From Bacteroidales bacterium (GTDB lineage: Bacteria; Bacteroidota; Bacteroidia; Bacteroidales; Azobacteroidaceae): 13,307 nucleotides of DNA. The stretch covers positions 1-13,307 of the forward strand of contig JAJBTS010000165.1 of the NCBI GenBank assembly GCA_020860885.1, in the 5' to 3' direction. A program made the translations under genes and the position numbers. The notes under the pieces were generated by a model. It saw nothing but the letters and a program-made list of their open reading frames with translations, was not told the DNA's origin and searched no databases. Positions 1 to 11,317 of the stretch are shown in pieces (position 1 is the first letter of the stretch; every line of letters begins with the position of its first letter).

Positions 1-63
1 TCAAAAAAAGCAAACATAAATCGTAATAAATTACTGGAGTTTGATATATTAAAAAAGACTATT

Positions 64-453
64 ATGTATTTCAAAAAGATCGAATCATTCATTTCCCGGT
101 TGGGTTATTCTATTTCGTATCAGAACGAAAAGGAAGGTATCTTTTGTATTGAGAACGAATCGGATGGAATTAAGAACCTGATTTTAGGAGTAGCTCCTCC
201 CATTCTTATCATGGAACAATTTATCTTTAAATTAAAAAGTGACGACAAGGACGTATTGAAGTCATTATTGAAAAAAAACAGAGATATTATCCATGGTGCA
301 TTTGTTCTGGATGAAGCTGGTGAGAAAGTTATTTTCAGATATACTATGCAAATAGAGAATCTGGATATTAATGAATTTGAAGGTGCGCTGAATTCTTTGG
401 GCTTATTATTAAGCGAATATTACGAACAAATTATTGAATTTTCTAAAAAGTAA
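64..453 (+). CDS. YbjN / Tir-chaperone-like small protein
   Basis: A 129-residue soluble protein with no signal peptide or membrane segment. The alternating short strands and helices, the central NRDIIHGAFVLDEAG stretch and the later IENLDINEFEGALNSL stretch resemble the YbjN/type III secretion chaperone-like (CesT/Tir fold) proteins often annotated 'molecular chaperone Tir' in Bacteroidota. This assignment is from memory of the family, not from a search. Such domains are small dimeric peptide-binding folds; secretion chaperone activity is not implied here, because no secretion genes are visible. The ATG at 64 follows an A-rich leader. The gene stops 4 bases before the PspA ATG, so the two are almost certainly co-transcribed and perhaps translationally coupled. 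Inference: an adaptor or chaperone for the PspA/flotillin/AAA+ module. The operon promoter was not found in the 63 bases upstream and may lie outside the window. Confidence 0.8.
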   Translation: MYFKKIESFISRLGYSISYQNEKEGIFCIENESDGIKNLILGVAPPILIMEQFIFKLKSDDKDVLKSLLKKNRDIIHGAFVLDEAGEKVIFRYTMQIENLDINEFEGALNSLGLLLSEYYEQIIEFSKK

Positions 454-457
454 AATT

Positions 458-1159
458 ATGAATATTTTTAAGAGACTACTTAGGATCGGACAGGCAGAAA
501 TTCATTCTGCAGTAGATAAGATGGAAGACCCTATTCGGATGACAGAACAAGGGATTCGCGAGATGAGGGAAGATCTTGATAAAGCGCTGGAAGCTTTGGC
601 TCAGGTCAGAGCCATGGCTATCCGTACTAAAAATGAGAAGCAGAAAAAACAAATTGCTGCGGAAGATTACCAAAATAAGGCTGTCTTGCTGATGACTAAA
701 GTTCAAAAAGAAGAATTGAATCCGGAACAGGGAGAAAAATTGGCAAAAGAGGCATTATCTTTGAAAGAAAATTTACTGGAAGAGATCGCACTTTTGAACG
801 GACAACAGGTTACCCATGAAAATTCGGCGGATGAAATTCAAAAAAATATTGACATATTGCATTTCAATATAACCAAATGGGAAAATGAGTTGAAAACTCT
901 TAAATCGAGAATAAAAGTCAGTCGTGCTACGAAAGAAGTGAATAAACAAATGGCGCAAATCGACAGTAACAGTACGATTAGTATGCTTGAACGTATGAAA
1001 GAGAAAGTAGAAGAAGAGGAGGCTTTGGCTCAGGCTTATGGAGAAATTGCTAACAAACGGACTTCTGTAGATAAAGAAATAGATAAGGCTATTGGGTATG
1101 AAGGCTCAAAAGTAAATCAGGATCTGGATGAAATAAAACGGAAGTTAGGTATATTATAA
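458..1159 (+). CDS. PspA/IM30 family protein
   Basis: A 233-residue, almost wholly helical coiled-coil protein of normal PspA/IM30 length. The N-terminus MNIFKRLLRIGQAEIHSAVD is an amphipathic helix of the membrane-binding type, followed by the family hallmark KMEDP near residue 25. Long charged helices follow, then an ISMLERMKEKVEEEEALAQAY stretch near residues 170-190 that matches the family's C-terminal helix. PspA/IM30/Vipp1 proteins belong to the ESCRT-III superfamily; they polymerise on the cytoplasmic face of the inner membrane and protect or remodel damaged membrane (established for the family). The ATG at 458 is chosen over an in-frame TTG at 434, because the TTG lies inside the upstream gene and would add eight residues before the conserved start. 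There is no pspF, pspB or pspC nearby. The neighbours are instead a Tir-like chaperone, an OB-fold membrane protein, a flotillin and an AAA+ ATPase. Confidence 0.93.
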   Translation: MNIFKRLLRIGQAEIHSAVDKMEDPIRMTEQGIREMREDLDKALEALAQVRAMAIRTKNEKQKKQIAAEDYQNKAVLLMTKVQKEELNPEQGEKLAKEALSLKENLLEEIALLNGQQVTHENSADEIQKNIDILHFNITKWENELKTLKSRIKVSRATKEVNKQMAQIDSNSTISMLERMKEKVEEEEALAQAYGEIANKRTSVDKEIDKAIGYEGSKVNQDLDEIKRKLGIL

Positions 1160-1189
1160 TATTAAAATTTATTGGATCTATACATTATT

Positions 1190-1885
1190 ATGAATGAATT
1201 TTTTCACAGTTTAATGCACCCTCTCCCCAATGCTGTCATGACAGTAGTGATGGGTATCATCCTCCTTTATTGGCTTTTTGTATTCCTCAGTGGAGTCGGT
1301 ATTGACGATTTGGATCTGGGATTTGATTTTGATGTGGATGTTCCGGATGCCGATACAGATACGGATGTAGATACTTCAGAACCGGATGGAGAGGGTGCTG
1401 GTGAAAAAGAACCGGGTTTTTTTATAAAATTTCTGAATTTCATGAATGTTGGAAAAGTTCCGTTCATGCTTATTTTATCAGCGTTTAAGTTTTTTATCTG
1501 GCTTGGGTCTCTGATAACAACTTCATTTATAAATGTAAGTACATGGGGAGCCTGGTCCTTGTTGATATTGTTTCCATTAGCTTTTATCAGCTTATTTTTT
1601 ACTAAAATAACAACGAATCCTATGGCGAAAATTTTTAAAGAACTCGGTTACCGGGGTGAGGATGAAATTGATTTTATCGGACGTTCTGGAAAAATGCTTT
1701 CTAATATTAAAGATAAGAAAATAGGAACTGCCGAAATTATGATAGATAATAATCCTATAAAGTTGAATGTGGTCAGCATGGATGGACAAGAACTTAAATA
1801 TGGTGAATATGTAATTATAGAAGATGAATCGGATGACAAAAGAACTTATTATGTAAGTAAAGAAATAAGTATCCGGAATTTTTAG
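1190..1885 (+). CDS. YqiJ/NfeD-like membrane protein with C-terminal OB fold
   Basis: A 231-residue membrane protein starting MNEFFHSLMH. Visible parts are a first membrane helix at about 13-36, a strikingly acidic linker at 38-74 (12 Asp between residues 39 and 66), two further membrane helices at about 86-110 and 117-139, and a C-terminal beta-rich domain at about 150-231. That last domain looks like the OB fold of NfeD/YqiJ proteins: an IGRSGKML opening, alternating strands, then a KYGEYVIIEDE strand. The family is normally encoded next to a flotillin, as in E. coli yqiJ-yqiK, and that is also the arrangement here, with the flotillin ATG 32 bases downstream. The likely role is membrane partner of that flotillin, with the OB domain presumed cytoplasmic. 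The ATG at 1190 is preferred to an in-frame TTG at 1172, which would add only six residues. The Asp-rich linker is the least conserved part and could bind divalent cations, but this is speculation. Confidence 0.85.
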   Translation: MNEFFHSLMHPLPNAVMTVVMGIILLYWLFVFLSGVGIDDLDLGFDFDVDVPDADTDTDVDTSEPDGEGAGEKEPGFFIKFLNFMNVGKVPFMLILSAFKFFIWLGSLITTSFINVSTWGAWSLLILFPLAFISLFFTKITTNPMAKIFKELGYRGEDEIDFIGRSGKMLSNIKDKKIGTAEIMIDNNPIKLNVVSMDGQELKYGEYVIIEDESDDKRTYYVSKEISIRNF

Positions 1886-1917
1886 AATATATAACCCTTA
1901 AAATAAAGAATTGAATT

Positions 1918-3972
1918 ATGCAAATTATTGTTATTATCGCAGGAGCTATTATTTTTTCTGTGCTGGTGTTTCTGGGATTACTGGCTTCTTTTTACAAGAA
2001 AATTCCTCAGGGAAAAGCTATTGTCCGAACTGGAGTAGGTGGAACGAAAGTGGCTTTTAATAAAGGTATGTATGTGATTCCTATTTTCCATAAGATGGAA
2101 ATTATGGATATCTCTCTTAAAAAAGTACAGATAGAGAGAATGCAACACGACGGATTAATTTGTAAAGATAATATCCGCGCTGATATAAAAGTCGCGTTTT
2201 TCGTGCGGGTAAATAAATCGGTTAATGATGTAATTAATGTTGCTCAGTCTATTGGTGCTGAACGGGCCAGTGATATTTCTACCTTGAAAGATATTTTTGA
2301 AGCTAAGTTTTCGGAAGCATTGAAAACGGTGGGTAAGAAATTTAATTTTATAGAGTTGTACGAAGCTCGCCGGGAGTTTCGGGATGAAATAATAAACATT
2401 ATCGGAACCGATCTGAATGGTTATGTGTTAGACGATTGTGCGATCGATTATCTGGAGCAAACAGAATTGAAATTTTTAAGCGCCGAGAATATTCTGGATT
2501 CTGAAGGTATACGGAAAATAACCGATCTGACGGCTGCTCAGAATATCAAAGCAAATCTTATTCGTAGAGAGGAAGAGAAGGTGATTAAAAAGCAAAATGT
2601 AGAAGCCCGTGAAGCCATTTTGGAATTAGAAAGGCAATTGGCAGAAAAAGAAGAAAAACAAAGACGTGAAATAGATAATGTTAAAGCACGTGAAGAGGCT
2701 GAGATACAAAAAGTACGTGAGGAGGAGCGCCTGAAAGCCGAATCTGTCAGGATTACCACCGAAGAGAGTCTGGCGATACAGGAAGAAAATAAGCTTCGTC
2801 AGATTATTATTGCAGAAAAGAACAAACAACGAACCCAGGCTGTTGAGACGGAGCGTGTCGAAAAAGATCGTGCTTTAGAGCAAACCGAAAGGGAGAGGAT
2901 TGTTACTTTGGCTCAGATTGATAAAGAACGTGCTGTGGAAATTGAAAAGAAAAATATACAGGATGTCATCAAAGAACGCGTTCAGCTTGAAAAAGGGGTT
3001 GTAGAAGAACAACAAAACATTCATGATATTGAAGCGTTCCGTACGATCGATCGTCAGAAACAGGTAGGCATTACGGAAGCATCTCAAGAAGCTGAACAGA
3101 GATTAATAGAAACTGTGAAAAGCGCTGAAGCGCAAAAGCTTGCGGCAGAAGAAAGAGCTAAAGAACTTTTGATCCAGGCAGAAGCTGAGAAAGAGGCTTC
3201 AGCGAAGCAGGCCGAAGCCAGAAAAATACTTGCTGATGCAAAGGCCCGGGAAGATGCAACTCTGGGTTTAGCTGAAGCGGAAGTAATTAAAGCAAAAGCT
3301 GAGGCGTTGGAAATACAAGGTTTCACAGAAGCATCTGTTATAGAAAAGAAGGCGAAAGCTGAAGCTCTGGGTATTGAGGTGAAATCAGACGCGAAGAAGA
3401 AAGAAGGGCTGATGGAAGCCGAAGTGACTAAAGAGAAAGCATTGGCCGAAGCTTCAGGTATAACTGAGAAAGCCGAAGCTATGAAAAAACTCGACGGTGT
3501 AGGTAAAGAGCATGAAGAATTCAAAATTGCTATTCAAAAAGAAAAAGAAGTGGAATTGGCTCAGATCCATATTCAGAAAGATATCGCCGAAGCTCAGGCT
3601 CATGTATTGTCTGAAGCATTAAAGAATGCGAATATTGATATTGTGGGAGGAGAAACGATGTTTTTCGAGAATATAGTGAAACAAATATCAAATGCTAAAG
3701 GATTTGACCGGCTGGTAAATGAAAGCTCCAATGCTACTCAACTGAAAAATGCACTATTGGGTAATAGCATTTCCGAAGGAGATCTTTTGGACCGTATCCG
3801 TTATTTTGCAGAAAAAACAGGTATATCAACGGAAGATATTAAGAATTTAAGTATCGCCGGATTGATATTGAAAATGCAAAGTAAAACAAGTGATAAGGAA
3901 GATAAAAGCTTTTTGAGCAGTCTTCTGGAAATGGCTCAATCAGCAGGAATATCAGATAAAAAGATAAAATAA
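1918..3972 (+). CDS. Flotillin-like SPFH/PHB protein (YqiK type)
   Basis: A 684-residue membrane-anchored flotillin. Residues 3-26 form one N-terminal membrane helix. Residues from about 27 to 200 form an SPFH/band-7 domain, recognisable by KIPQGKAIVRTGVGGTKV followed by GMYVIPIFHKMEIMDISLK. Residues 200-580 are a very long Glu/Lys/Ala-rich coiled coil, with degenerate repeats such as AKAEALEI near 459 and AKAEALGI about 20 residues later. The C-terminal 100 residues contain IVGGETMFFENIV and a less charged tail. The protein is longer than E. coli YqiK (about 550 residues), mostly through the coiled coil. Family members form membrane-bound oligomers that organise microdomains (established). 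The OB-fold gene directly upstream and the PspA gene before it place it in an envelope-stress module. Long reading frames on the opposite strand here, such as 3084-3524, are by-products of the GAA/GCT-rich codons. A hairpin follows the stop. Confidence 0.93.
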   Translation: MQIIVIIAGAIIFSVLVFLGLLASFYKKIPQGKAIVRTGVGGTKVAFNKGMYVIPIFHKMEIMDISLKKVQIERMQHDGLICKDNIRADIKVAFFVRVNKSVNDVINVAQSIGAERASDISTLKDIFEAKFSEALKTVGKKFNFIELYEARREFRDEIINIIGTDLNGYVLDDCAIDYLEQTELKFLSAENILDSEGIRKITDLTAAQNIKANLIRREEEKVIKKQNVEAREAILELERQLAEKEEKQRREIDNVKAREEAEIQKVREEERLKAESVRITTEESLAIQEENKLRQIIIAEKNKQRTQAVETERVEKDRALEQTERERIVTLAQIDKERAVEIEKKNIQDVIKERVQLEKGVVEEQQNIHDIEAFRTIDRQKQVGITEASQEAEQRLIETVKSAEAQKLAAEERAKELLIQAEAEKEASAKQAEARKILADAKAREDATLGLAEAEVIKAKAEALEIQGFTEASVIEKKAKAEALGIEVKSDAKKKEGLMEAEVTKEKALAEASGITEKAEAMKKLDGVGKEHEEFKIAIQKEKEVELAQIHIQKDIAEAQAHVLSEALKNANIDIVGGETMFFENIVKQISNAKGFDRLVNESSNATQLKNALLGNSISEGDLLDRIRYFAEKTGISTEDIKNLSIAGLILKMQSKTSDKEDKSFLSSLLEMAQSAGISDKKIK

Positions 3973-4002
3973 ATACTGTTCATTCCATCATTAATTCGAG
4001 TT

Positions 4003-4037
4003 TATCTGGATCCCTTTATTTTTAAGGGATTCAGATA
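4003..4037 (+). terminator. Strong intergenic hairpin (partial terminator or processing site)
   Basis: Bases 4003-4016 pair with 4024-4037. This gives a 14-bp stem with one G-T wobble (4009/4031) and a seven-base loop TATTTTT. It starts 31 bases after the flotillin stop and ends 17 bases before the ATPase ATG. The run that follows is ATTATTAACAC, not a clean T tract, so a classical terminator is doubtful. Attenuation between the four upstream genes and the ATPase, or mRNA processing or stabilisation, are equally plausible. Confidence 0.5.
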
Positions 4038-4053
4038 TTATTAACACACAACT

Positions 4054-5442
4054 ATGCAGGATCTGGAAAAAAATAAAGCTGTTGAAGCATTAGAAGCAGG
4101 AACGTACGAGATTATCCGTAAAAGATTGCAAGTTCAAAAAGATATTCTTCAGGAGAAATTGAACGCACTGAATGAAGCGCGGAAAGAAGTTTTTTCTTCA
4201 ACAGACTTTTCATTAATCGCTAACCAACGTATTAATACTGAAAATAATTGTGAAGCGAGAGGAATACTTGCGTTAGGCAATCTTTGTATATTTGGATATA
4301 ATGTCCATTTCGGATTGAGAACAGAAATAGAGTTGAAGGATGTTTTTAGTATCTATTTATTTGAAAACAATCAATTTATACCTCAATCGCTGGAGTTGAT
4401 AAATGATCCGTCTTTTGTTACTGACTTTAAGAATCTGTATAAATATTACCGGGATTCTATTTTCCTAAAATTCAGAAGAACTGAGAATTACCTTTACATG
4501 ATTTTTCAGACTAGTAAGAATGCGGGAGATGAAAAAGCCTTCAAATGGCTGATCAAAGGATCTAAACTGACCTATCAGGATGACCGGAGTATTCATGAGG
4601 TAGTGAAAGCTCCGCAGCATGAGTTTGTTTGGGTAAAAACAACACTGGAGGATCGTCGTTTAGGGGTCTATCCTCATGTATCTGTTTTGGATAAAGTATT
4701 TATCGAAGCTACTGGAGGAGATATTACTTTTAAGGTAGAAGATAATACTCAGACCGGTAAAGGAATTTATTCGGAAAAAGTGGAGAATAAGGATCAGCAG
4801 CTGGACGATGCCGAATATTATTATGCAGATTTAGGTAATTTGATATTATTGCGGATTAAACCTTATCAGGAAGATTTTCGAACCTATGTATTCAATGTCC
4901 GGACAAAAGAGATTTTGAACATAAAAATACTGAACGATGCCGGAATATTATTGCCTGATAATCAGGGAGTCATATTTCCTAATGGTTACTACCTTCAAAA
5001 CGGAGAATATAAGATCTTTGAAAGTGAGTTGGCAGGGCTTGAGTTTTTCAGGAAAGTAATATCTCCCAACGGAGAAGACTTCCTGTATATTTTCTATCAG
5101 AACAAACGAAATATCTATGTACTGATGTCTTACAATATTATCAGGCAACAGGTAGAAACGCCTATTATCTGTAACGGACATACTCTCTTTTATGATGGAA
5201 CGCTTATCTTCTTCCGGTCAGAGCAAGAAGCCATCCGGCATCATCAGGTCCAGATATGGCAAACTCCCTATTCTCGTCAACTTAAAGAAAACACGGAAAA
5301 GAAAGATAATTTTTTATATAAAATAGGGAATAAAGATATTGTTAAAGCAATGGCTGAAAGTCATGAACTGATACAATTGATCAATAAAGAAGATACATAT
5401 GAAGGATTATACGAAGATATAGAAAAAAATCGGGAGATATAA
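4054..5442 (+). CDS. DUF3686 AAA+ ATPase ('DNA repair ATPase'), N-terminal part, frameshifted
   Basis: A 462-residue open frame carrying the DUF3686 region. Family-typical stretches recalled for these very large ATPases are present: IFGYNVHFGL at about 80-89, YKYYRDS, a GGDITFKVEDNTQTGKGIYS segment near 220, FPNGYYL, PNGEDFLYIFY, QIWQTPYS at 400-407, and IGNKDIV. The N-terminus (ALEAGTYEIIRKRLQVQKD) is helical and also looks complete. The domain is usually followed in the same polypeptide by a coiled coil and an AAA+ module; here the frame ends early at 5440-5442. The final codons ENREI come from the wrong frame: the family-like sequence continues in the -1 frame from the seven-A run at 5423-5429. 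The function is not established from sequence; the 'DNA repair' name is historical. Context, downstream of PspA and flotillin, points to membrane stress. If the shift is real and not suppressed, this product lacks the ATPase domain. Confidence 0.88.
   Translation: MQDLEKNKAVEALEAGTYEIIRKRLQVQKDILQEKLNALNEARKEVFSSTDFSLIANQRINTENNCEARGILALGNLCIFGYNVHFGLRTEIELKDVFSIYLFENNQFIPQSLELINDPSFVTDFKNLYKYYRDSIFLKFRRTENYLYMIFQTSKNAGDEKAFKWLIKGSKLTYQDDRSIHEVVKAPQHEFVWVKTTLEDRRLGVYPHVSVLDKVFIEATGGDITFKVEDNTQTGKGIYSEKVENKDQQLDDAEYYYADLGNLILLRIKPYQEDFRTYVFNVRTKEILNIKILNDAGILLPDNQGVIFPNGYYLQNGEYKIFESELAGLEFFRKVISPNGEDFLYIFYQNKRNIYVLMSYNIIRQQVETPIICNGHTLFYDGTLIFFRSEQEAIRHHQVQIWQTPYSRQLKENTEKKDNFLYKIGNKDIVKAMAESHELIQLINKEDTYEGLYEDIEKNREI
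5423..5430 (+). other. Frameshift site: A7 run with A_AAA_AAT heptamer
   Basis: In the upstream frame the codons are GAA AAA AAT CGG GAG ATA TAA. The bases 5424-5430 form the X_XXY_YYZ heptamer A_AAA_AAT in the correct phase for a -1 shift. Slipping back one base gives EKKSGD-IIDAYFWISD, which runs without a stop into the downstream ATPase frame; that frame is open from 5403. An eighth A would have the same effect. The only structures found downstream are weak 4-bp stems (such as CTGG 5456-5459 with CCAG 5470-5473), so there is no obvious stimulatory hairpin. A homopolymer indel or sequencing error is therefore at least as likely as programmed slippage. Confidence 0.8.
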
Positions 5443-5495
5443 TTGATGCTTATTTCTGGATATCAGATGCCAGTACTTACACTTTATCGGATCCC

Positions 5496-8400
5496 TTGTC
5501 GCAGATTCAGGAAACAGCCAGTATGGCAATTGATGAGTTTGATAAAGTAAAAGCACAGAGAAAATATGCAACGGAAATTCTTACTACGACTACAGAAAAA
5601 ATAGATGCTTTATTATTCTCAATAAAGAATACGAAGTTCGATGCTCTGGAAAAATTAGTGAAACTATTGGCTGAATGCCGGAAGATGCAGGGGGAAGTAA
5701 TCGAATTGAATAGTTATAAGTATGTCGATCCCGAAAGAATAGAAGATTTAAAGAAGATATTATCAGAAACAAACAGTAATCTTTCCGATAAAACAGTCTC
5801 TTTTTTATTGCGAGAGGAAGCATTAGCTCCTTATGAAGAAAAGGTAGTAGCACAAAAAGACTATATACAAAAGGTAACAAAAGTCATAGATGCCAATGAG
5901 ATAGATAAAAATTGCAAACAGATATCTTCGGAACTTGAATTATTGATCGATATACTCAATAGTTTGAAAATAGATGATACTACGCAGACTACAAAGATTA
6001 TTGAAAAAATATCCCTGATATTTGCTTCATTGAATGAAGTGAGAGCACAGTTAAAGAAAAAAGTTGATTCTCTTAAAAATCAGGAAGCTTCGGCTGAATT
6101 CAGAGCTCATTTAACTCTTTTGGAACAAAGTATAGTAAATTATCTGGAACTGGTTTCCAGCCCTGAAAAATCGGATGAATATTTCACTAAAATCAGTGTT
6201 CAGATTGAAGAACTGGAAAGTAAATTTGCTGATTTTGATGAGTTTATTGTTATTATTGCGGATAAAAGAAATGAAGTTGTCAAGGCTTTCGATAATCGTA
6301 AAACCCAACTGATAGAACAGATAAACCGTAAAACATCTTCTCTTGAACAAATAGGACTTCGCGTACTTAAAAATGTAGAAAATAAAGCTCAGTCTTTTAA
6401 AGCGAAGGAGGAAATTCTGTCGTTTTATTCTACTGACCTCATGGTCGATAAAGTACGTAAATTAGCAGAAGAACTCAGGAACTTAGGTGATATTTCCAAA
6501 GCTGAGAATTTGGATAATAGCCTAAAAACATCGCTTGAAGATGCTTTACGGATATTAAAGGATAAAACAGAACTTTTTGTTGATGGCGAGAATATAATTG
6601 CATTAGGAAACTATAAATTCGCGGTTAATAAACAAACACTTGATTTAACTGTCGTGAGACGGGAAGATTATCTGTTGTACCATTTAACCGGTACCGGTTT
6701 TTATCTCAACTTACAGGATAATGTTATCAATCAGTTTCAAGATATTTGGGATCAGGAATTGGTATCGGAAAATAAACAGGTTTATCGTGCCGAATATCTG
6801 GCTTTCCAAACATTTAATGAATGGTTGGTAAATAAGGATATCAATGCTAAGGAATTTGTTAATAAGAAAGTAGAACAGAGCTATTCCGAATCCTATATGA
6901 AAGGCGTTCATGATAAGGATGCTTTGATTATTTTTGATAAGTTAAAAGATATTTCTCAACAGTTAGGAGTATTAACCTTTCGCCCACAAGTTAGAGTGGC
7001 TGCACAGCTCTTCTGGTACAGTTTGAATGAGAATGACAAACGGTTGCTCCGAGGGTTGATCGTCACAGCTAATAATGTTTTAAAAGCATTTCCGGTCTCT
7101 AAAAATTATCAATATGTAATTAAGAATATTGAGGAGTTATTTATTAAATGGAATACTCAGATTAGTTTTTCCAAGATGTTGCCGGAACAAATTGCACTTT
7201 ATCTTTTTATTGAATTTGCAGAAAATCCGGCTTTCACAGTGAGTGAACAGTCTCAACTCCTACAAAAAGAATTTTTGTCCTATCTGAAAGAAGAGAAGCT
7301 TTACGAGAGTTTCAGAATAGATCTGGATAATGAGTCGTTCAGCATTGTGGAGCGCTTTTATTTGGTGAGAAACTGGTTAAGGTCTTTTATCGATCTTTCG
7401 CCGAAATACCATGTATATAAAAAATACGTAAGTGAAACTGCTTGTGAATTGCTATTGCATGAACATCAGTACGAAATGAGACGAGGTTCGGATAGAATAG
7501 AAATAGATGAATTGAGAGGAAGTCATCCTGTTATCAGCAATAATTTGTATCAGGTAGATTATCACGATTTTATTCTTAAAATGACGGAATTTACAGAGGA
7601 AAGTATTCCCAGGTTTAATAAATTCAGCAAACAGAAAGATCTTTTGACGAGTTCTTTCAAAAAGTCATTAAAAATCCATGAACTGAAACCCAGAGTTCTT
7701 ACCTCATTTGTACGTAACAAGTTGATCAATGAAGTCTACCTGCCTTTTATTGGGGCTAATTTTTCTAAACAATTAGGAGTTGTAGGAGATAATAAACGTA
7801 CCGCCAGGATGGGTATGCTATTACTTATTTCTCCTCCGGGATATGGAAAAACAACATTGATGGAATATCTGGCAAATACAATGGGATTAAATTTTGTAAA
7901 AATAAACGGGCCAACAATCGGACATAGTATCACTTCGATAGATCCTTCAGAGGCTAAAACGTCCGGTGCAAGAGAAGAATTGAAAAAGATCAATCTTTCT
8001 TTTGAGATGGCTGATAATGTTATGTTATATATTGACGATATACAGCATTGCAGCCCTGAATTCTTGCAGAAATTTATTTCTTTAGCAGACGGACAACGTA
8101 AGATGGATGGCATATTCGAGGGTGAAAGTAAAACATATGATCTGCGGGGAAAAAGATTTTGTGTCGTGATGGCAGGAAATCCTTATACTGAAAGCGGGGA
8201 AAAATTTCAGATTCCGGATATGCTGGCAAACCGTGCGGATGTGTATAACCTCGGAGATGTGATTGGAGGATCTGATCATCTTTTCAAACTTAGTCTGATG
8301 GAAAATGCAATCACAGAGAATCTTTATTTACAAAAGGTCGCTGGAAAAAGTTTCAATGATTTTTATAAATTGATGGACTACATAGAAAGTAATAGTGAAA

Positions 8401-8918
8401 TGATGCCCGATCTTGAAGGTAATCATCTGCAACAAGATATTGATGACTTTATTGCTGTTGTAAAGAATAGTCTGCTTGTGCGGAATATTGTATTAAAAGT
8501 CAATCGCAATTACATTGATAGTGCAGCGATGCAGGATTCTTACAGAGTGGAGCCATCTTTTAAGTTACAAGGTTCTTATAGAGATATGAATAAATTGGTT
8601 GGGCAAATTGTTCCTCTTATGAATAGAAAGGAGATAAATCAACTCATTCTTACTCATTATGAAAGTGAATCTCAAACATTGACTTCCGATGCAGAAGCGA
8701 ATATCCTGAAATTAAAAGAAATTGCCGGATTGTTGACAAATAAAGAGTTAGAGCGGTGGAATCATATTAAAGAAGTATTTCTCAAAAAGAATAAGTTAGG
8801 AGGGTTGGATCCGGGTAATCAGTCGGTACAGGTTCTTTCACAATTAATGGAATTTAATGAGAACCTTCAAGGCATTAAAGAGGCACTTACTTCAGGAGAG
8901 AATACCCGGGCTTCATAG
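5496..8918 (+). CDS. DUF3686 AAA+ ATPase, coiled-coil and AAA+ part, frameshifted
   Basis: This is the C-terminal two thirds of the split ATPase: 1140 residues from a TTG at 5496, with the next in-frame ATG at 5523. The frame is open from 5403, and family-like sequence (IIDAYFWI, then AIDEFDKVKA) begins before either start, so an independent start is doubtful. Residues 1-330 are mostly coiled coil, followed by a mixed middle region. The AAA+ core lies at about 770-960: Walker A SPPGYGKTT at 779-787, Walker B LYIDDIQH with D847/D848, a sensor-1-like AGNPYTESG around N895, and an LANRAD motif with a candidate arginine finger. Walker A has Ser where the first Gly is usual, and Walker B has D-D rather than D-E; I believe both are usual in this family. 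Joined to the upstream half, the protein would have about 1621 residues, the expected size. Inference: a cytoplasmic remodelling ATPase acting on PspA or flotillin assemblies. Confidence 0.9.
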   Translation: MSQIQETASMAIDEFDKVKAQRKYATEILTTTTEKIDALLFSIKNTKFDALEKLVKLLAECRKMQGEVIELNSYKYVDPERIEDLKKILSETNSNLSDKTVSFLLREEALAPYEEKVVAQKDYIQKVTKVIDANEIDKNCKQISSELELLIDILNSLKIDDTTQTTKIIEKISLIFASLNEVRAQLKKKVDSLKNQEASAEFRAHLTLLEQSIVNYLELVSSPEKSDEYFTKISVQIEELESKFADFDEFIVIIADKRNEVVKAFDNRKTQLIEQINRKTSSLEQIGLRVLKNVENKAQSFKAKEEILSFYSTDLMVDKVRKLAEELRNLGDISKAENLDNSLKTSLEDALRILKDKTELFVDGENIIALGNYKFAVNKQTLDLTVVRREDYLLYHLTGTGFYLNLQDNVINQFQDIWDQELVSENKQVYRAEYLAFQTFNEWLVNKDINAKEFVNKKVEQSYSESYMKGVHDKDALIIFDKLKDISQQLGVLTFRPQVRVAAQLFWYSLNENDKRLLRGLIVTANNVLKAFPVSKNYQYVIKNIEELFIKWNTQISFSKMLPEQIALYLFIEFAENPAFTVSEQSQLLQKEFLSYLKEEKLYESFRIDLDNESFSIVERFYLVRNWLRSFIDLSPKYHVYKKYVSETACELLLHEHQYEMRRGSDRIEIDELRGSHPVISNNLYQVDYHDFILKMTEFTEESIPRFNKFSKQKDLLTSSFKKSLKIHELKPRVLTSFVRNKLINEVYLPFIGANFSKQLGVVGDNKRTARMGMLLLISPPGYGKTTLMEYLANTMGLNFVKINGPTIGHSITSIDPSEAKTSGAREELKKINLSFEMADNVMLYIDDIQHCSPEFLQKFISLADGQRKMDGIFEGESKTYDLRGKRFCVVMAGNPYTESGEKFQIPDMLANRADVYNLGDVIGGSDHLFKLSLMENAITENLYLQKVAGKSFNDFYKLMDYIESNSEMMPDLEGNHLQQDIDDFIAVVKNSLLVRNIVLKVNRNYIDSAAMQDSYRVEPSFKLQGSYRDMNKLVGQIVPLMNRKEINQLILTHYESESQTLTSDAEANILKLKEIAGLLTNKELERWNHIKEVFLKKNKLGGLDPGNQSVQVLSQLMEFNENLQGIKEALTSGENTRAS

Positions 8919-8999
8919 TGAGAATTTAATTAGTGGCTCCACTGGATAGTTAGAAACCAAAAATATATTGATTTTTCAAATTCAATTCCGAATTTATCG

Positions 9000-9007
9000 T
9001 ATTTTTG
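9000..9007 (+). promoter_or_regulatory. Bacteroides-type -7 element before pyrH
   Basis: TATTTTTG matches the Bacteroidota TAnnTTTG -7 consensus. It lies 30 bases before the pyrH ATG, so transcription would begin about 15-25 bases before the start codon. No good TTTG -33 element is seen at the usual 19-21-base spacing; TTTC at 8974-8977 is a poor match. It separates pyrH from the ATPase gene, which ends 119 bases before pyrH. Confidence 0.5.
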
Positions 9008-9037
9008 TGTTTTCTATTAATAACTAATTAATGTATT

Positions 9038-10384: not shown

Positions 10385-11317
10385 TTGAGAGGGCTTGTTG
10401 TTAAGAATACAGGAAGTTGGTATCAGGTAAAGACCGACGATGGGCGGTTGATCGATACCAAACTGAAAGGTAGTTTCCGCCTCAAAGATATTCAGAGTAC
10501 GAATCCGATTTCCGTGGGTGATCATGTACTTATTGAAGAGAATCCGGAAGGAACTGCCTTGATTTATGAAATTGAAGACCGGAAGAATTATATTATTCGC
10601 CGGTCTTCTAATCTTTCCAAACAATCGCATATTATTGCGGCTAATCTGGATCAGGCTTTTTTGATCGTTACTGTAAACTATCCCATTACAACTCCTACAT
10701 TCATAGATAGATTCCTGGCTACTACTGAAGCTTACAGTGTTCCGGCTTCTATTTTCTTTAACAAGATTGATCGTTACAATGAAGAGGATACGGAATATAT
10801 GGATGCGTTGATTCATCTGTATGAGACTATCGGGTATACGTGTTACAAGATATCTGCATCTAAAGACAGTGATTTTTCTTTTATGAAAGATTTATTAAGA
10901 GATAAAATCACTTTATTTTCAGGTCATTCCGGTGTGGGGAAATCAACGCTTATTAATCGTTTGGTTCCTGATATTAACCAGAAAACCCAGGAAATTTCAG
11001 AATATCATAATAAAGGTATGCATACAACCACTTTTTCTGAAATGATCCCGCTCACTGAAGGAGGGTATATTATCGATACTCCCGGAATTAAAGGTTTCGG
11101 CGTTTTTGATATGGAAGGAGTCGAGATATCTCATTATTTCCCGGAAATATTTAAATTTTCTCACAATTGTAAATTCAATAACTGTACTCATAGAAAGGAA
11201 CCTGGTTGTGCTGTAAGAGAGGCCTTGAAAGATCATTATATCAGTGAATCCCGCTACAAAAGCTATTTGAGTATGCTGGATGATAAAAATGAGAATAAAT
11301 ACAGAGAGCCTCAATGA
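10385..11317 (+). CDS. rsgA: Ribosome small-subunit-dependent GTPase A
   Basis: RsgA (YjeQ/YloQ), a circularly permuted GTPase that checks late maturation of the 30S subunit. The domain order is an N-terminal OB fold (about 1-75), a permuted GTPase with G4 NKID at 126-129, G1 GHSGVGKST at 180-188 and G3 DTPG at 231-234, and a C-terminal zinc finger with ligands C262, C267, H269 and C275. At 310 residues it has the usual length. The start is a TTG at 10385, two bases after frr. It is preferred because [18 protein letters not shown] is the conserved beginning of the family and no ATG is available at that point. The stop codon overlaps the ATG of the next gene (ATGA at 11314-11317), which implies translational coupling to the YitT gene. 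Confidence 0.97.

Follow-up and report, generated by a model that had tools for sequence, protein, structure and literature searches.

The window analysed here is the complete contig C308 (JAJBTS010000165.1; 13,307 nucleotides) of a Bacteroidales metagenome-assembled genome (MAG; GCA_020860885.1, hereafter G000; 438 contigs, 3.0 Mb, 92% complete), and the gene under study is that of a large AAA+ ATPase which is broken by a change of reading frame (Table 1). Analysis of the open reading frames (ORFs) confirmed the frame boundaries of the original prediction, with an upstream frame that carries DUF3686 (PF12458, E 8.2e-165, covering profile positions 2–439 of 448) and stops shortly after a run of seven A (A7), and a frame one base back that is open on both sides of this stop. 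The first ATG/GTG/TTG start of the downstream frame is a TTG at 5496, giving 1140 amino acids, and a single continuous ORF of about 1600 amino acids is not present in the window. When the homologues P0001 and P0009 were used as tblastn queries the match to the upstream piece ended at 5427 and that to the downstream piece began at 5424, without any gap in the query, and since these matches are ungapped at 5424–5427 the position of the junction is exact; joining the frames at the heptamer A_AAA_AAT does restore the continuing sequence of the family, as had been claimed. The break of the frame as such far exceeds what chance would produce.

Table 1. Positions of the ATPase frames, their junction and the neighbouring genes in the window
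Feature	Position	Strand	Remarks
ATPase, upstream ORF	4054..5442	+	ATG start, 462 amino acids, DUF3686 (beta-propeller part), ends with TAA at 5440-5442
ATPase, open frame one base back	5403..8918	+	Coiled-coil, DUF7902 and AAA part; 1171 amino acids from 5403
A7 run	5423..5429	+	Meeting point of both frames; T next
Heptamer A_AAA_AAT	5424..5430	+	In phase with upstream ORF; by-product of the A run
CesT/YbjN-like gene	64..453	+	Operon neighbour; PF22550, E 2.8e-51
PspA/IM30 gene	434..1159	+	Operon neighbour; PF04012, E 3.6e-43
YqiJ-like gene	1172..1885	+	Operon neighbour; PF21001, E 2.4e-5, 25 bits (cut-off 23)
Presumed flotillin/band-7-like gene	1918..3972	+	Operon neighbour; by position and resemblance, beside the ATPase in relatives too

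Comparison with relatives was made in 80 named loci, 78 of which have both parts of the gene (L059 and L081 are without the upstream part and were left out of the counts). The junction is crossed in one frame in 77 of the 78, the last one (L067) having a run of N at this place, and an ORF of more than 1500 amino acids is found in 75, the exceptions being L067, L018 and L079, the latter with a frame change further downstream in the ATPase. At the level of the order, near-full-length matches were found in 14 of 392 other genomes, with open frames of at least 1612 amino acids in 13 and of 1295 in the remaining one, and among the best 120 of 985 proteins 119 are at least 1500 amino acids long. The nearest homologue, P0001, is 89% identical over the first piece (residues 1–458) and 82% over the second (458–1618), both without gaps, and reads through the junction codon in one frame. 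As seen among these relatives, neither a split nor recoding appears to be a trait of the family. That the difference from the relatives might lie just before the A run was considered, as the residue encoded there differs in most relatives, and was dropped since P0001, P0029 and P0084 were shown by a pattern search among the 120 proteins to share the residue of the window. The C-terminus of P0001 contains an EFNxNLxxIK-like repeat in about four copies, against one in the window (8800–8918).

The two halves of the ATPase were examined for signs of decay at columns that are near-invariant among 116 full-length homologues. In the first piece 0 of 152 such columns differ in the window, and in the second 3 of 331 do, a count that 17 of the 116 homologues equal or exceed, while private changes at invariant columns, compared with P0001 using 11 outgroups, number 5 against 0 and 14 against 5 (p 0.06 each). 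Neither half is visibly decayed, and the break is either of recent origin, an artefact or subject to bypass, which upholds the original prediction of a shift that is recent, an error or tolerated.

A control for homopolymers was performed at the level of the assembly, in which 60 other contigs of G000 (537,986 bases including the window) and 1,164,639 bases of the related genome G011 were surveyed for homologous matches that change frame. Homologues of 128 of the 826 G011 ORFs were present in G000, where they covered 129,790 bases and revealed two breaks (contig C311 near 2350 and contig C5 near 5735), and the reverse survey, with homologues for 119 of 376 G000 ORFs, gave no break in 139,079 bases of G011. 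The break in the window lies outside this survey, the surveyed stretches of G011 being without such a gene, and was detected with P0001 and P0009 as control queries. Both additional breaks are situated at sense-strand A7 runs and both are opposite in sense to the one in the window. The first (locus L157, near 2310–2353 of C311) is a frame change at A7 in a gene that matches its G011 homologue weakly (36–38% identity) and that we take to be a GH2 glycosidase-like gene. The second (locus L131, 5453–5981 of C5, minus strand) is a TIGR00095 gene, presumably rsmD, in two frames meeting at A7. Of the remaining 37 genomes of the genus, 29 gave a one-frame match of rsmD to most of the family (G027 to positions 39–191 only) and eight gave no such match; three of the 29 were flagged for an internal TAA, with open frames of 179, 183 and 190 amino acids.

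Because all three breaks sit in A/T runs of at least seven, homopolymer slippage of some kind is presumably the cause. Runs of this length number 88 in 140,301 bases of covered sequence in G000 and 45 in 168,615 bases in G011, and runs of at least nine are scarcer, relative to runs of eight, in G000 (6 to 85) than in G011 (33 to 112; p 0.001), a scarcity that would agree with length errors, although it may also be genuine. A mutator arising through loss of mismatch repair was rejected as neither mutS nor mutL is broken in G000.

Taken together, the explanation we consider very probable is a private one-base length change in the A run that breaks a normally continuous gene in a single MAG contig, with no special decoding signal. 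Such a change would have arisen by homopolymer slippage, either as a sequencing or assembly error, which we place slightly ahead, or as a recent and possibly polymorphic mutation, and neither a programmed frameshift nor a natural gene split would be required. In the case of a real break, the propeller part alone would be expected as product, together with, at most, some full-length protein through chance slippage.

Several observations weigh against this explanation. In a relative-rate test the branch of the window is mildly faster than that of P0001 (significant with four of five outgroups for the second piece, none of five for the first), so that the earlier statement that the halves show no other damage holds for the near-invariant columns but is weakened by the rate; the faster branch may reflect the rate of the lineage or weak relaxation and is not decisive, but it would also be consistent with a break that is older and has evolved under relaxed selection. 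One homologous piece, P0131, also stops near the same place. Furthermore no break is present in rpoC, mutS or mutL of G000, so that breaks do not pervade the assembly, and two breaks against none are too few to prove an excess in G000.

Among the alternatives, one is that the break is real and that slippage of RNA polymerase or the ribosome on A7 is frequent enough to give full-length protein, a bypass without programming. The undecayed halves would agree with this, as would the presence of three A7 breaks in one genome with rsmD among them, and the available text of Rockah-Shmuel et al. (PMC3812077) describes bypass of indels in repeats of 3–8 bases, including deletion of an A in a repeat of eight. 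Nevertheless we regard it as very unlikely: a genome-wide study of E. coli and Buchnera reports, in its available text, no frame-restoring transcription error (PMC5574713), the well-tested natural case has A11 (PMC4256274, from the accessible part), and the other two breaks are opposite in sense, so that one direction of slippage would not serve all three. There is likewise only a slim chance that the lineage tolerates A7 indels throughout its 3-Mb genome (in the ATPase, rsmD and glycosidase-like genes) by slippage of polymerase or ribosome with mutS and mutL unbroken, which would resemble what has been proposed for the reduced genomes of insect endosymbionts. A literature search on pseudogenes and frameshifts of Azobacteroides in the context of termites returned nothing.

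Phase variation, in which the length of the A run would vary within the population and toggle the ATPase on and off, is suggested by the position of the break at a homopolymer, by the intact halves and by the further A7 breaks in the genome. A short A run such as A7 makes a weak contingency locus, which counts against it, and a comparison of run length in relatives, as had been proposed, showed that the run is not conserved: in the 77 one-frame loci the longest stretch of A close to the junction varies from 2 to 7, and it reaches 7 in 11 of them. With mutS and mutL unbroken, and rsmD an improbable target for switching, phase variation is very unlikely.

A natural division into two genes with separate translation, of which the second would start at 5496 or further in, could be argued from the first product, which comprises nearly the whole DUF3686 profile, and from Dysgonomonas capnocytophagoides, in which an independent in-frame TAG leaves a similar first product. 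In the latter strain (DSM 22835, locus L018) the TAG is situated at 6127, about 42 codons past the junction, and the remaining frame is open. No relative with the same split was found among the loci examined, and the independently started pairs of proteins that the original prediction had named as the sign of a natural split were not found either, an absence that is incomplete as it covers only the best 120 of 985 proteins, a list from which the second ATPase half encoded by the window itself is missing. Within this list the only protein of 1000–1300 amino acids comparable to the second half is P0093 (1226 amino acids), in which DUF3686 is still present. N-terminal pieces, examined among the best 120 of 259, end all over the protein, and in the length range searched three of 119 others (P0129, P0131 and P0218) end within 12 residues of the junction. 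P0131 (467 amino acids, metagenomic, from a contig of 1,984 bases) has unrelated residues near the same junction, possibly as a result of a second frame break. A structure model of P0122, a homologue 81% identical to the first ATPase piece of the window (predicted local distance difference test, pLDDT, 89.1; predicted template modelling score, pTM, 0.69), places the junction at residues 444–445, inside a predicted helix (439–453), so that the split is not located in a linker. Since the split would cut this helix, and with so few comparable pieces among those listed, a natural split is highly improbable.

The junction had also been described as a slippery heptamer for -1 frameshifting, and a meaning of this heptamer as a signal is not supported. 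Within the listed genes of the window there are 27 in-phase heptamers of the type X_XXY_YYZ, four of them A_AAA_AAT (the one at the junction included, and another at 4068 of the same ATPase gene), and slippage within an A run of such length before a T necessarily leaves an in-phase A_AAA_AAT, so that the heptamer is not independent evidence. The earlier view that no strong hairpin follows the junction, which disfavours programming, stood: no stimulatory structure was predicted on its 3' side (z +0.97 and +0.56 for folding against shuffles; pseudoknots not tested), and an Rfam scan of the window gave no match at the gathering score. A programmed -1 ribosomal frameshift at A_AAA_AAT, yielding two products, one short and one long, at a fixed ratio, agrees with the in-phase heptamer and the open next frame but is extremely improbable, as such heptamers are common in the window, no downstream structure is predicted, neither the site nor the frame change is conserved in the relatives, none of which needs a shift, and the junction lies inside a predicted helix and not between domains.

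With the one-base length change as the preferred explanation, the surroundings of the gene place it in a known context. Both DUF3686 and AAA domains are found, the two pieces being scored apart, with the CesT-like, PspA and YqiJ-like genes adjoining, and the gene is a beta-propeller/coiled-coil/AAA+ ATPase of a PspA-CesT-band-7-type operon, as one gene. For the N-terminal part the model of P0122 predicts strands to about residue 390 and helices after, and its comparison with the PDB returned several proteins that are propellers by title (DCAF1 WDR, Vps11 WD40, Vps18 propeller), all with low TM, which is consistent with an N-terminal beta-propeller. A sequence search of the PDB gave a single weak match, to Testis-expressed protein 12, which was discarded, and a literature search on DUF3686 gave nothing. 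The CesT-like, PspA, YqiJ-like and putative flotillin-like genes are found in the same order 5' of the ATPase in loci L003 and L017, while the remaining loci examined show the neighbours only as far as the stretch reaches or keep some of them. The product of the gene next to the ATPase had no match in Pfam or NCBIfam, and its name, flotillin/band-7-like, is our assumption. In L059, a locus from a Tannerellaceae MAG, the flotillin-like gene is near 6000 fused directly to the later part of the ATPase, what lies between being seemingly lost or misassembled.

The operon (1–9037) is situated directly 5' of pyrH-frr-rsgA-yitT (the names pyrH and frr being our assumption), and these four genes stay together in G011. 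RsgA of the window (10385–11317) is 81% identical to that of G011, and further close RsgA sequences carry the names Candidatus Symbiothrix, Candidatus Azobacteroides and OttesenSCG-928; we infer that the organism lives as a symbiont in the gut of termites or cockroaches. No copy of the ATPase was detected in the remaining 37 genomes of the genus or in the other 44 of the family, among which those 37 are counted. Mis-binning of the contig, suggested by an ATPase that is Dysgonomonas-like and was not found elsewhere in the genus, was judged unlikely as the only pyrH match of G000 is on this contig and is up to 90% identical to same-genus pyrH; it is also disfavoured by the named RsgA matches, which come from the same wider clade. 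The RsgA cluster (P0241) stands for two contigs and that of the ATPase piece (P0121) for one; a second copy of the ATPase gene of the species was not found, P0121 representing one contig.

The case is a useful warning rather than a discovery, since a slippery heptamer is to be expected at any length change in an A run and cannot alone suggest recoding, while relatives together with a homopolymer control at the level of the genome answer most of the recoding question. Should the breaks be real, G000 would be suited to testing whether A-run indels are tolerated in organisms other than the endosymbionts with tiny genomes.

When compared with known systems, the window has the same set of neighbours (CesT-like, PspA, YqiJ-like, presumed flotillin-like and an AAA+ protein with propeller) as the CesT/Tir-PspA operon which, according to the available text of Ravi et al. 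(2024, PMC11237479), contains band-7/flotillin, YqiJ/YuaF-like and AAA+ ATPase genes, the last with coiled-coil and beta-propeller, and for which a role in the assembly of membrane-linked complexes during envelope stress is proposed; the ATPase is one protein in that operon and in the relatives, whereas its frame is broken in the window. The tssM1 gene of Citrobacter rodentium, for which the accessible part of the report (PMC4256274) describes transcriptional slippage on poly-A, is likewise interrupted soon after an A run, but there the run is A11, slippage is shown by experiment and the case is seen in a second species, neither of which applies to the A7 of the window. In the available text of the survey by Antonov et al. 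(2013, PMC3711429) singleton frame transitions validated by BLASTp are expected to be sequencing errors and not genuine indels, and these share with the window a break that is private to one genome and a homologue that is continuous elsewhere, the difference being that the survey covered complete genomes and that the window comes from a MAG.

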